The position numbers and the translations under genes were made by a program. From assembly GCA_033439795.1 (NCBI GenBank), contig JAUTDP010000016.1:124001-188000 (forward strand): a stretch of 64,000 nucleotides of DNA, read 5' to 3'. The notes under the pieces are model-generated. The model did not search any database. It had not been told where the DNA came from and was given only the letters and a program-made list of their open reading frames with translations. Shown here one piece after another: positions 49,597-58,593 of this stretch (the stretch's first letter is position 1; each line of letters opens with the position of its first letter). This DNA is from Sordaria brevicollis (lineage: Eukaryota > Ascomycota > Sordariomycetes > Sordariales > Sordariaceae).

Positions 49597-50804
49597 ATGG
49601 GAACCCAAGACCCCATATCCTCCATCCAACCCGGGCACGGGGTCGACATGGAACGACAACCTTCTAATGCTGTCAACAACGGCAACGACGAACTCGACGA
49701 ATCCCGCCTCGCCCAGTTCGGTTACAAACAAGAACTCGATCGCGACTGGGGGCTAGCTCACAACTTTGGCGTCTCCTTTTCCATTATTGTGCGTTTCCCC
49801 CATTGCCCATCCCCTCATCCTCTTACCCATGCTGACCCATGACAGTCCGTAATCACCGGCCTAACCACCCTCTTCTCCTACGGCCTCTCAACCGGCGGTC
49901 CAGCCGTAATGTCCATCTCCTGGCTCGTCGTCTCCTTCTTCACTTTACTGGTGGCCACCGCCATGGCCGAAATCGTTTCCGCAATCCCCACCTCCGGCGG
50001 CCCCTACTTCTGGAGCGCCATGCTCGCCCCTCCCAGCTGGTCCCCCTTCCTAGCCTGGTTAACAGGGTGGTTCAACCTCCTCGGCCAAGTCGCCGTCACC
50101 ACCGGTATAACCTTTGGCCTAGCCGGTCTCGTCTCCACCGCCATAACGGTGAAAAACCCAGACTACGAACAAACACCCGCCAAAACAATCGGCATCTACG
50201 CCGCTCTTTTGTTTTCTCACGGCGTCGTCAACACCTTCGGCGTCAAAGCCCTGCGCTGGCTCAACAACGTCTCCATCATCCTCCACAGCGCCGGCATCAC
50301 CGCTTTGTGCATCGCCGTGCTCGTCAAAGCGCCAAAGTTGCAGAGTGCCAAATTTGTCTTTGGGACTTACCACGACGGAACCGCTGCCGAACCAGATGGG
50401 GCAGAGGGATGGGGCCAGCGGGCATCACCAGCATACGTCGTCCTCTGCGGCGCGCTCATGTCGCAGTACACACTCACGGGCTTCGACGCCAGCGCTCACT
50501 TATCCGAAGAGACGAAAAAGGCCAGCTGGAGTGCTCCCATCGGGGTTGTTAGTTCGGTCGGGTTCAGTTCGATATTTGGGTTTTTCGTGTTGATGGCTTT
50601 CTTGTTTTCGATTCAGGATTTTGAGCAAGTGCTGGATAATCGGTACGGCCAACCGGTTCTGCAGATATTCGTGGACGTGTTGGGCGAGGATGGCGCGCTG
50701 GTGCTGTTTGGTCTGATCATGGTCTGCGTCTGGCATTGCGGGCTGTTTAGCATGACGAGTAATTCGAGGATGATGTTTGCTTTTGCGAGGGATAGGGGGA
50801 TTGT

Positions 50805-50852
<48 letters not shown>

Positions 50853-51684
50853 CTTTGGTTTCCCTCCTTCTTACCCCTTTTGTCTTGTTTTGTTTCCCCC
50901 CCCCCATTCTCCCTACCCCTTTTTGTTTTCAGTGTTTCCCCCCCTTCCCTTCCCCTTTCCCCCTCCCCTTCCCCCCTCCCCTTCCCCTCCCCTTCCCCTT
51001 TTCCCTTCCCCTTCCCTTCCCCTTCCCTTCCCCTTCCCTTCCCCTTCCCTTCCCCTTTCCCCTCCCCTTTCCCCCTTTCCCCTTCCCTTTCCCCCTTTCC
51101 GGCAAACGTCCACTGACAAACAAAACAAACAGCCCACCCTCTTCACCACCATAAACCCCCGCTTCAAATCCCCCCTCCCCGCCATCTACCTAGCCACCAC
51201 CCTCTCCTTCCTCCTCGCCCTCCCCTCTCTCGGGTCCGAAGTCGCCTTCGCAGCCGCAACCTCCATCGCCACCATCGGCCTTTACTTATCCTACGGGCTT
51301 CCCATCTTCATCGGTCTCTTCTGGCACAAAAATTTCGCGGCCATGAAGGGCCCCTTTAACCTGGGCGCTTTATCCCGTCCCGTCGCGGCGGCTGCGTGTC
51401 TTTGGATTTGCTTCATTACGGTGGTGTTTTGCTTGCCGACTGCGAACCCGGTGACGAGCCAGACGCTGAACTACACGGTTGTGGCGGTGGGGGTTATTAC
51501 GCTTGGAGCGGTTGGGTCGTGGATGGTTTGGGCGAGGAGGTGGTTTACGGGCCCTGAGGCGAGGGAGGTGGCGGAGGCGATGAGGGTGGGGGTTGATATT
51601 ACTGAGTTGGAGCCGGGGGCACTTGAAAGGAGGGAGAAGGAGAAGGAGGTGATGGAGGGGCGGGAGAAGGGGGTTAGTGAGTGA
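49597..51684 (+). CDS. APC-superfamily permease (choline/GABA/amino-acid type)
   Basis: Plasma-membrane permease of the fungal GABA/polyamine/choline group (Uga4/Hnm1-like). Three exons: 49597-49788, 49846-50802 and 51133-51684, all phase 0, giving 566 aa. Intron 1 is 57 nt (GTGCGT/CAG). Intron 2 is 330 nt (GTGAG/CAG), divisible by three and stop-free, so a naive ORF runs through it. The N-terminal cytosolic tail ends FGYKQELDRDWG, typical of the family. The first helix has SYGLSTGGPAVM, followed by AEIVSAIPTSGGPYFW (a conserved APC signature), ALMSQYTLTGFDASAHLSEET and SNSRMMFAFARDRGI; about 12 membrane helices are expected. The C-terminal tail is charged and Glu-rich. The substrate cannot be decided. 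It converges with the amidinotransferase-like gene, with stops 157 bp apart. Confidence 0.9.
50808..51110. repeat. T45 homopolymer plus long CT-rich tract inside an intron
   Basis: A run of 45 T (50,808-50,852) starts five bases after the intron 2 donor and is followed by ~250 bases composed almost wholly of CCCCTT/CCCTTCC-type repeats up to ~51,108. The whole intron is a giant polypyrimidine tract on the transcript. Confidence 0.85.
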
Positions 51685-55421: not shown

Positions 55422-55820
55422 ATGATCTTCAACACCCCTTACACCCTCGGCGAACCAATCCCCACCGTCCCCTCCAAACCCATCCCCACCGTCCCCTCCA
55501 AACCCATCCCCAATAAGCCCTCCAGACACACCTTCGACAACTTCGACTTCGACTTCGACAACTCCAGCTTCGGCCCTCACACCCTCGGCGAACCAATCCC
55601 CACCGTCCCTTCGAAACCCATCCCCAATAAACCCTCCAGACACACCTTCGACACTCTTGACAACTTCAACCCTCACACCCTCGGCGAACCAATCCCCACC
55701 GTCCCCTCCAAGCCCATCCCCACCGTCCCTTCAAAGCCAATTCCCAACAAGCCTGGTAGTGGTCATGGCCATGGATATAAGGATGTTGATGAGGACACCG
55801 ACCTCGAGGAGGAGTATTGA
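55422..55820 (+). CDS. Small Pro-rich tandem-repeat protein
   Basis: 132 aa with an ATG in good context (CAAAAATGAT) after an A-rich leader. The sequence is almost all repeats: three blocks of TLGEPIPTVPSKPIP, two of them with the 8-residue TVPSKPIP doubled, each block followed by NKP; the first two continue SRHTFD with short Asp/Phe/Asn linkers (DNFDFDFDN), and the last ends in a GHGHGYKDVDED acidic tail. No signal peptide, membrane helix or Lys-Arg processing site is seen. I do not recognise the family. It lies 611 bp from the end of the convergent WWKR-repeat precursor gene, so a link to that locus is possible but unproven. The strict nucleotide repetition suggests recent internal duplication. 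Confidence 0.7.
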   Translation: MIFNTPYTLGEPIPTVPSKPIPTVPSKPIPNKPSRHTFDNFDFDFDNSSFGPHTLGEPIPTVPSKPIPNKPSRHTFDTLDNFNPHTLGEPIPTVPSKPIPTVPSKPIPNKPGSGHGHGYKDVDEDTDLEEEY

Positions 55821-56431: not shown

Positions 56432-56830
56432 TTACTCGTCCTGGTTAGCTGCGCCGTCCCTCTTCCACCACGCAATCCTATCAATCATATCCGTCGACTG
56501 CTCATCTTCCTTCTCCCCTCCCCGCTTCCACCAGACCGTACGGTTGATCATATCCGTCGTCTGCTCCCCTTCCTTGACCTCCTTTCCTGGCTCCGCCTCA
56601 GCCTCCCTCTTCCACCAAGCAACCCTATTAATCATATCCATCGTCTGCTTATCACCATCCTCCTCCTCCCTTTTCCACCAAATAACCCGATTAATCACAT
56701 CCGTCGTCTGTTCCCCTTCTCCACCCTTGATAACTTCGACATCAGGACCGATGACAGCAACAGGAGGGATAGCGGCTGCTTGAGCGGCGCCGAGGAGGGT
56801 GAGGATGGCGAGGGTTTTGTTGAGTTGCAT
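56432..56830 (-). CDS. Secreted precursor with four Trp-Trp-Lys-Arg repeats (candidate RiPP/KEP precursor)
   Basis: 132 aa, single exon. Residues 1-20 (MQLNKTLAILTLLGAAQAAA) form a classic signal peptide. Four imperfect repeats follow, with consensus T-x-D-(M/V)-I-(N/D)-R-x-x-W-W-K-R; the Lys-Arg pairs are at 53-54, 74-75, 102-103 and 123-124, and acidic spacers separate them. K-R is the Kex2 protease site. One is followed by EAEA, the Ste13-type dipeptide trimming signal known from alpha-factor precursors. The layout (signal peptide, repeated core, Kex2 sites) matches fungal Kex2-processed repeat proteins, among them dikaritin peptide precursors and alpha-pheromones. The known Neurospora alpha-pheromone repeat is different and Cys-containing, so this is not that gene. 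The divergent UstYa neighbour favours a modified-peptide precursor. Product unknown. Confidence 0.85.
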   Translation of the reverse strand: MQLNKTLAILTLLGAAQAAAIPPVAVIGPDVEVIKGGEGEQTTDVINRVIWWKREEEDGDKQTMDMINRVAWWKREAEAEPGKEVKEGEQTTDMINRTVWWKRGGEKEDEQSTDMIDRIAWWKRDGAANQDE

Positions 56831-57640
56831 CTTCGGCGTGCCTTGCGTATGGTATAGTGGTGCTGACGAAGGTGGTATGTAGATCTAGATTGGCTGACGA
56901 TACTAGATGGACTGGATTGGAGCTCGAGTTGAAGGAGGATATAGTGGTGGTGGTGGTGGTGGTGGTGGTGGTAATCTTTTTTGACCGTTGCCTGGGCTGG
57001 AATATCAGTCGGCTTTTATACCTCTACTCAACCAGCTCGTTGTTTCCGACTGGACCTGGATACTCGCAGCTCCCGATTCTCTCTCGTATCTCTGAAACGC
57101 GCAAACATCTTTAGAGTTATCGCACGTGTGCAGGGTCGCCGACGGCATCTGCGACTTGGAAACCGGAAGACTCTTCCTTCAAACAGGAAGGGAAGGTGTT
57201 AAGGACATTCGAAGTCAACATTATGGGTAAATGACACCTTACAATCGAAGACCGACGGTGAGATTCCTTCAGGATCCGAAGTACCCTATCCCATGCCCGG
57301 AACGGTTAGGGCCGAACTTTCCGACGGGGAGGATGACGAAGATGCGCCAAAGGATTGCAGCAGATATTAAGAGAATTCGAATCTTGTACGCCAAAGTGGA
57401 AGGAGGTAAACGGTCGGCAAAGAAGAGTGAGATTTTAGGTCCAACGGGATCGCATGAAGGAAGAGCGTTGAACTCCCGGTGAAAACTCCGGTTGTAACGG
57501 TCCAAGTTGATCTTGGCGGAAGGTTGGAGCTATCGGGTCCTTCTGAAATCTCAACTCGACACGAATGGACACTCTGCTCTCTGGGAATATAGCGAGTGTC
57601 TCGCTCAAGACATCTTTACAACAAACCCAGAGCAAACACC
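56831..57640. promoter_or_regulatory. Bidirectional upstream region between WWKR precursor and UstYa gene
   Basis: 810 bp between two divergent start codons. A GGT microsatellite lies at ~56,946-56,971. No other credible ORF is present. A shared promoter would allow co-expression of precursor and modifying enzyme (inference). Confidence 0.55.
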
Positions 57641-58593
57641 ATGGCTTGGAAAAGCCCATCCGATGCCTCAGATGAAGAGCGCCTCCTTCATGAAACCGAG
57701 CAGGACGACAGCTCGCCAGTCAATGAACCACCAAGCAATAGCCGCCCATCAATACTGCTCTGGCTATCGCTGGCATTGAACGCGACACTTCTCACAGCAT
57801 TGGTGATCAGTTGGATACATCGGGCATCATCACAATGCTCAGGGCGATGCATTCCCAACCCGGTGTACAGTTCGTCACTCTTCCCGACTCTCTTGCATCG
57901 ATCATTTGACTGACAGATGCACTAGCACCCGCCGACGATATTATCTCATACAAAACCGTCATCTTCCACAGTGGTTTGCACCTTGACAGGACCGAATACC
58001 AAGGGTCTTCAGACGAGGTCAATGCCAACTGGGAAGCCCTTTACAACAGTGAGAAGCATCCCCTTCTCCGGTCATCCGAAAATAGAACACATCTAACACT
58101 CGCAGACATGTCCCTCTCCCTCATCCCACCATCCTCCGCCTCCAAACTTCTCAACAAAACCACCCACCTCCCCGGCGACCCTAAATCCTTCGTGATCCAG
58201 CTCTCCGTCTTTCACAACTTCCACTGCCTCAACACTCTGCGCAAGCTCTTGTATCCATCCAAGTACCCCAGTCCCATCCACTCCCAGCACACCGACCGTT
58301 CCCAGCACTCGCACCCACAAGCTTCGTACGAAGAAGAGGTTCTCCACCTAGAACACTGCATCGAAGGCATCCGCCAGTCACTGCAATGCTCAGCAGACAC
58401 CAGCGCCTTATTCTGGGAATGGAGTGAAAGACGCAAAATGATGGTGGGAAACACGGCGACGACGCACACGTGCAAGGACTGGGAAAAGGTCAGGCAGTGG
58501 GGGTTAGAACATCAGACAGGACGGTACTTTGATCCATACGAACGGGTGGAAGGGGCACCGATAAGGGATGATTCTGTGGAGTTTGGTCCTTGA
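57641..58593 (+). CDS. UstYa-family (DUF3328) oxidase-like membrane protein
   Basis: UstYa-type proteins act in fungal ribosomal peptide pathways (ustiloxin, asperipin, phomopsin, victorin), where they carry out oxidative cyclisation of core residues. Exons 57641-57869 and 57926-58593, with a 56-nt intron (GTTCGT donor, CACTAG acceptor). The splice restores VYTPADD, matching the family's Y-(S/T)-P-A. The product is 298 aa. ATG 57,641 has an excellent context (CACCATGG). One membrane helix spans residues ~37-59 after a short cytosolic tail, then a lumenal domain. Both hallmark HxxHC motifs are present: HNFHC at 173-177 and HLEHC at 217-221, followed by the usual A-L-x-W and HTCKDW segments. 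A His/Ser-rich insert (191-210) separates the motifs. Found alone, its role would be open; next to a repeat precursor it suggests peptide modification. Confidence 0.92.

Follow-up and report, generated by a model that had tools for sequence, protein, structure and literature searches.

We analysed a 64,000-nucleotide stretch of the Sordaria brevicollis genome (assembly GCA_033439795.1, contig JAUTDP010000016.1, positions 124,001 to 188,000; hereafter the window) and found a gene for a repeat-containing peptide precursor lying head-to-head with a gene for a UstYa (DUF3328) protein. The layout is that of a locus for dikaritin-type ribosomally synthesised and post-translationally modified peptides (RiPPs). 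The two genes probably constitute a two-gene pathway of this type, with a peptide likely to be cross-linked through tryptophan (Trp); this judgement blends pathway and product, and overlaps with the alternative that the enzyme modifies the peptide without cyclising it. Taken separately, it is very likely that the UstYa protein of the window acts on the precursor of the window, and the chances that the product carries a Trp cross-link are about even. An initial annotation had proposed a minimal dikaritin-type pair here; this is still the preferred interpretation, and the genome contains three other divergent pairs, but the cyclised product is a part that we infer.

The precursor, its repeats and the divergent UstYa gene

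The precursor gene (56432..56830, minus strand) encodes a Kex2-processed repeat protein of 132 aa in one exon, from an ATG at 56830 to a TAA at 56432, and its frame is intact and uninterrupted. Inspection by eye and a hydropathy scan pointed to a signal-peptide-like N-terminus, MQLNKTLAILTLLGAAQA (56777..56830, minus strand). It is followed on the same strand by four repeat units, QTTDVINRVIWWKR (56669..56710, residues 41-54), QTMDMINRVAWWKR (56606..56647, residues 62-75), QTTDMINRTVWWKR (56522..56563, residues 90-103) and QSTDMIDRIAWWKR (56459..56500, residues 111-124), each of which has 14 residues and is closed by KR. The precursor with four Kex2-bounded repeats described in the initial annotation, seen here as four WWKR units after a signal-like start, was thus borne out. 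The consensus given there, D-M-I-N-R-x-x-W-W-K-R, was right overall, but one unit has V in place of M, one has D in place of N, and the unit proper starts three residues earlier, at an invariant Q. The pattern of the four units is Q[TS][TM]D[MV]I[ND]RxxWWKR, with Q, D, I, R, W, W, K and R identical in all of them, and the acidic spacers between them have 7, 14 and 7 residues (EEEDGDK, EAEAEP... and GGEKEDE).

The four WWKR sites are not due to chance: when residues 21-132 were shuffled, two or more WW[KR]R sites arose in 2 of 100,000 shuffles, compared with four observed. In number and length, the tandem repeats between dibasic sites are also those of the Kex2-processed repeat proteins (KEPs) as delimited by Umemura 2020 (at least three tandem repeats of at least eight residues, besides a signal peptide), applied by hand instead of with the published program. 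Comparison of the units gave a ratio of nonsynonymous to synonymous differences per site (pN/pS) of 0.27 (pS 0.52, pN 0.14; 14 codons), pooled over six unit pairs that are not independent, as the repeat array holds a duplicated block of 116 nt with 78% identity. The low ratio suggests that the protein sequence has been held while the codons drifted. Searched against its own genome with E up to 10, the precursor matched only itself.

Past the signal peptide, the precursor contains 8 Trp but lacks Tyr, Phe, His and Cys. With Trp as its sole aromatic residue, any aromatic cross-link must use it; Tyr is absent as a cross-link donor, and the two-Cys core of alpha-pheromones (WCxxxGQxCW type) does not occur in the precursor. 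Directly after the invariant Arg, the successive units have V, V, T and I, all of them beta-branched, and the invariant Ile stands at unit position 6, two places before this Arg.

The UstYa/DUF3328 gene (57641..58593, plus strand) encodes 279 aa in three exons (57641-57869, 57926-58048 and 58106-58593) separated by GT...AG introns, according to our own splice model. The product matched Pfam PF11807 (UstYa) over residues 35-253 with 142 bits and an E value of 2.9e-41. Placed through the exon model, the first HxxHC motif is HNFHC (58213..58227, plus strand, residues 154-158) and the second is HLEHC (58345..58359, plus strand, residues 198-202). The locus thus combines two features by which dikaritin loci are recognised, a UstYa/DUF3328 gene near the precursor and two HxxHC motifs in its product, and a head-to-head UstYa gene with both motifs had been correctly noted in the initial annotation. 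A single hydrophobic stretch starting at about residue 38 is a putative membrane anchor. The intergenic region of 810 bp between the two ATGs (56831..57640) is presumed to be a shared promoter, and it includes a GGT-type microsatellite near 56940-56972.

In the DUF3328 protein CctR, a homodimeric membrane-associated copper enzyme, the HxxHC(x)nHxxHC motif makes a binuclear site, and it has been proposed that the helical domain carrying the paired motifs faces the lumen of the organelle (PMC12435403). The order of parts in CctR and in the UstYa protein of the window is alike, and by this analogy the latter may bind copper. A PDB sequence search with the window protein at E up to 10 returned no match, and an AlphaFold model of exon 3 only, made with no alignment, had a mean predicted local distance difference test score (pLDDT) of 43.5, which is too low for a comparison of folds.

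Precursor and UstYa genes elsewhere in the genome

Searching PF11807 genome-wide gave 14 exon-level matches, which we grouped into about 11 genes at six loci. A repeat precursor was present at four of the six, namely the window and loci on the contigs labelled C12, C3 and C1. In each of these cases, the precursor and UstYa genes closest to each other are divergent (gaps of 810 bp in the window, 1499 bp on C12, 846 bp on C3 and 1101 bp on C1) and the repeats contain Trp; Tyr is absent from the precursors at three of them (past the signal peptide; on C3 from the first core on), C12 being the exception. Since three further divergent pairs exist in the genome, it is unlikely that the precursor and the UstYa gene became neighbours by chance.

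The C12 locus (C12:166518-174579) is a fuller cluster: besides a precursor with PAYVW[GA]SR repeats, it has three UstYa genes and a gene for a GNAT acetyltransferase; YVW[GA][GS] is listed among conserved fungal peptide motifs (PMC6339444). On C3 (C3:1293411-1294930), a precursor with ten WTQI repeats (WTQIIN cores) is divergent from a UstYa gene, and its signal peptide lies in another reading frame, through an intron or a frame difference. A HET-domain gene lies farther along from this pair. The likeness 'T-x-[MI]-I-N' between the cores of the window and of C3 was given no weight. On C1 (C1:5415152-5417939, minus strand), two tandem secreted-looking precursors have Trp-rich cores (PWIW, PFKW, NFWAW) after KR sites, and the nearer one is divergent from a UstYa gene starting at C1:5419008 (plus strand). 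A cytochrome P450 (P450) match with stops was seen at C1:5406513-5407796, about 7 kb from these precursors.

At the remaining UstYa loci, on C21 and C22, no repeat precursor was recognised in strict, loose and further scans of open reading frames (ORFs). The C21 locus (C21:1256392-1268914) holds about four UstYa genes with a tyrosinase gene (C21:1266373-1267207) among them, and elsewhere on this contig eight Methyltransf_23 matches within 23 kb (C21:866549-889104) are apparently an array of methyltransferase genes. No tyrosinase match was listed on C1, C3 or the window's own contig, C8; C12 has one, some 1.45 Mb away from the repeat precursor there.

Signal-peptide repeat precursors numbered 3 among 1339 ORFs, and all three were at UstYa loci; the background for this frequency is small, namely the non-UstYa sequence of the window and of a 48-kb flank. 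The loose repeat scan flagged 28 of 2136 ORFs, four of which were kept (window, C12, C3, C1), and the other 24 were dropped by eye because they were alternative frames of those genes, were of low complexity or lacked a KR-bounded repeat. An Arg/Asp-rich low-complexity frame (L024) flagged by the strict scan was also discarded, and two frames flagged in the further precursor scan were dropped by eye. The strict scan missed both C1 precursors, the scan of 1339 ORFs missed the C3 precursor and the second C1 precursor, and the latter was recognised by eye in the ORF list. One narrow pattern for the POI2/ustiloxin-type core had no match in the genome, a result that excludes little. An alpha-pheromone-like precursor is located on C27, with the core QWCRIHGQSCW. 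This is the Neurospora alpha-pheromone core, which makes a fungus in or near Sordariales probable. In most of the cores of this precursor, a terminal W precedes K(K)R. None of the 14 PF11807 matches falls on C27. A Kex2-type P_proprotein domain is present on C25.

Tailoring enzymes and genomic surroundings

The initial annotation had noted no P450, tyrosinase or methyltransferase nearby, and none was listed on C8, but the methyltransferase search was partial. C8 carried none of the 20 genome-wide tyrosinase matches, no P450 among the at least 100 genome-wide matches listed, and none of the 27 Methyltransf_23 matches (27 of 74 candidates scored, one family used). The cluster thus lacks the tyrosinase of the older five-gene definition of dikaritins (with tyrosinase, methyltransferase, transporter or peptidase), which was later relaxed (PMC12048977). 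A Pfam scan also took in 25 ORFs chosen from the window and from the flank to its right, some of them overlapping frames, with the small exons from 58.6 to 63 kb covered in part. Among these ORFs, no tailoring enzyme was found in the gene island that holds the pair, and no peptidase was found around it.

This island has normal GC content and includes genes for an Arf-type GTPase, an SGF29 homologue and an amino-acid permease, with a cyclophilin-RRM protein on the right side. Those other than the permease look like housekeeping genes, and the permease (49843-51684) has no sign of a link to the pair. AT-rich blocks flank the island (window 10-42 kb, 18-35% GC; C8:197-207 kb, 19-29% GC), and past the left one, at least 53 kb from the pair, are an Asp/Glu racemase-family gene and a sugar transporter gene. 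The blocks (window 10001-42000 and C8:197001-207000) resemble DNA altered by repeat-induced point mutation or centromeric DNA. Adjoining the 3' side of the precursor is a short proline-rich frame with TLGEPIPTVPSKPIP repeats (55422-55820, plus strand), which has no signal-like start, KR sites or Pfam match.

Proposed pathway, alternatives and known systems

Pathways of this class involve secretion, Kex2 cleavage at dibasic sites and DUF3328-dependent cyclisation (PMC7329392, PMC9233826), and the counts of DUF3328 genes peak at the gene adjoining the repeat precursor (PMC7329392). In the pathway that we propose for the window, the precursor would enter the endoplasmic reticulum and Golgi, Kex2 would cut after each KR, and a carboxypeptidase would then remove the KR. 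Further trimming of the acidic spacers would leave a peptide of at most about QxxDMINRxxWW (12 residues or fewer). The membrane-anchored UstYa protein, a dicopper oxidase by analogy, would oxidise this peptide in the same lumen. We favour a bond from the Trp indole to the beta-carbon of a branched residue, because Trp is the only aromatic residue and both the beta-branched V/V/T/I and the invariant Ile are present; the candidate partners are this Ile at position 6 and the beta-branched residue after Arg. In the asperipin-2a pathway, a UstY enzyme bonds a Tyr oxygen to a Phe beta-carbon (PMC12186524).

Several points weigh against a two-gene, Trp-linking pathway. The evidence considered here is the sequence of this one genome. 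DUF3328 genes are also found in nonribosomal-peptide and polyketide clusters (PMC12048977), and DUF3328 proteins also hydroxylate, halogenate and desaturate (PMC12435403, PMC10512285). Moreover, in aligned pieces the UstYa protein of the window has 23-34% identity both to its counterparts in the other Trp pairs and to the UstYa proteins of the tyrosinase-bearing C21 group; as it is no closer to the former, the sequence singles out no Trp-specific branch.

A serious alternative, less likely than cyclisation but clearly to be reckoned with, is that the UstYa protein modifies the peptide without closing a ring, by hydroxylating or desaturating it or by some other C-H oxidation, at the invariant Ile, Asp or Arg or at a Trp. 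Hydroxylation at a C(sp3)-H position is known for CctR (PMC12435403), the UstYa proteins of the phomopsin pathway desaturate residues as well (PMC10512285), and the window has a single such enzyme on a contig with no tyrosinase match. However, the dikaritins described in PMC9233826 are cyclised, and the pathway to bicyclic asperipin-2a has only one DUF3328 gene (PMC7329392, PMC9233826), which is also a partial precedent for the 'very small' pathway of the initial annotation.

It is improbable that the repeats act as linear signals, in the manner of pheromones or hormones, released by Kex2, Kex1 and a Ste13-type peptidase, with an unrelated UstYa neighbour. The alpha-pheromone-like precursor on C27 has the same anatomy, most of its cores also ending in W before the dibasic site; the EAEAEP spacer before repeat 3 resembles a Ste13 site (PMC6339444); and among published repeat precursors, 78% lack a neighbouring DUF3328 gene (PMC7329392). 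Against this, a divergent UstYa gene adjoins the precursor here and at three other loci, and a DUF3328 gene is almost never near pheromone precursors (PMC7329392). That the pair is a decayed or silent remnant with no present function is very unlikely: it does sit in a GC-normal island between AT-rich blocks, but both reading frames are unbroken and of normal GC, the introns run GT...AG, and pN/pS across the repeats is low.

A Trp-linking RiPP pathway would extend a known kind. A survey of 1461 strains found repeat precursors in 1345 of them, 7878 in all; 1758 of the precursors lie near a DUF3328 gene, and the W content rate of their repeats is 20.5%, compared with 24.5% in the other precursors (PMC7329392). 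Trp is therefore less unusual than the initial annotation implied. According to a 2022 review, no more than five dikaritins had been reported (PMC10512285), and the ones described in PMC9233826 include no Trp-linked product. In the open literature, supplementary precursor lists aside, we found neither WWKR-type core strings nor a fungal W-W product. Asperigimycins are newer fungal products with Trp-derived rings. The kind of pathway, a repeat precursor with DUF3328, is known; what makes this member useful is that it narrows the Trp question to two genes.

UstYa proteins are a recently recognised copper family, whose ring-forming reactions, as far as described, use Tyr or Phe. A Trp-only precursor beside a single UstYa gene offers a clean two-component test of Trp cross-linking without tyrosinase, and the three further Trp-containing loci are built-in replicates. 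More tentatively, and with considerable doubt, we suggest that this fungus might run several small precursor-UstYa modules with no adjoining tyrosinase, in which UstYa dicopper enzymes cross-link from Trp and not from Tyr. If so, the bonds would run from Trp to a beta-carbon or between two Trp, the divergent precursor and enzyme genes at the four loci may share a promoter, and the products may serve not as toxins but as signals in development, as has been reported for POI2 of Neurospora.

Among known systems, bacterial darobactin is likewise a ribosomal peptide, with a Trp-Trp ether cross-link (PMC9055067), but it is made by a radical S-adenosylmethionine enzyme, and we claim no sequence relation to it. 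POI2 of N. crassa is an ustiloxin-type repeat precursor reported to be essential for female sexual structures (cited in PMC7329392); with Y and I conserved in its core, it is not of the window precursor's type (PMC7329392). Repeat-precursor type P-3 of Umemura 2020 has W in its repeats and 4 of its 7 genes near DUF3328, but there W is accompanied by P (PMC7329392), the likeness being one of description, not of sequence logo. Victorin and epichloecyclins also come from repeat precursors and carry aromatic-aliphatic cross-links (Phe-Leu and Tyr-Ile, respectively; PMC9233826); they use another aromatic residue and are likened by cross-link type, not core sequence. A Tyr donor holds for ustiloxin, phomopsin and asperipin-2a, but not for victorin. 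Ustiloxin and phomopsin share the repeat precursor, Kex2 sites and DUF3328 proteins; they have Tyr-Ile cores (YAIG, YVIP), two and five DUF3328 genes, respectively, and an indispensable tyrosinase (PMC7329392), whereas the window locus has a Trp-Trp core and one UstYa gene, with no tyrosinase match on its contig. The asperipin-2a pathway of Aspergillus flavus differs in that its cross-links start from two Tyr (PMC9233826) and that a reductase and a transporter take part (PMC12048977), neither of which was found at the window locus, but it is alike in its signal-peptide repeat precursor, Kex2 sites and single DUF3328 protein (PMC7329392).
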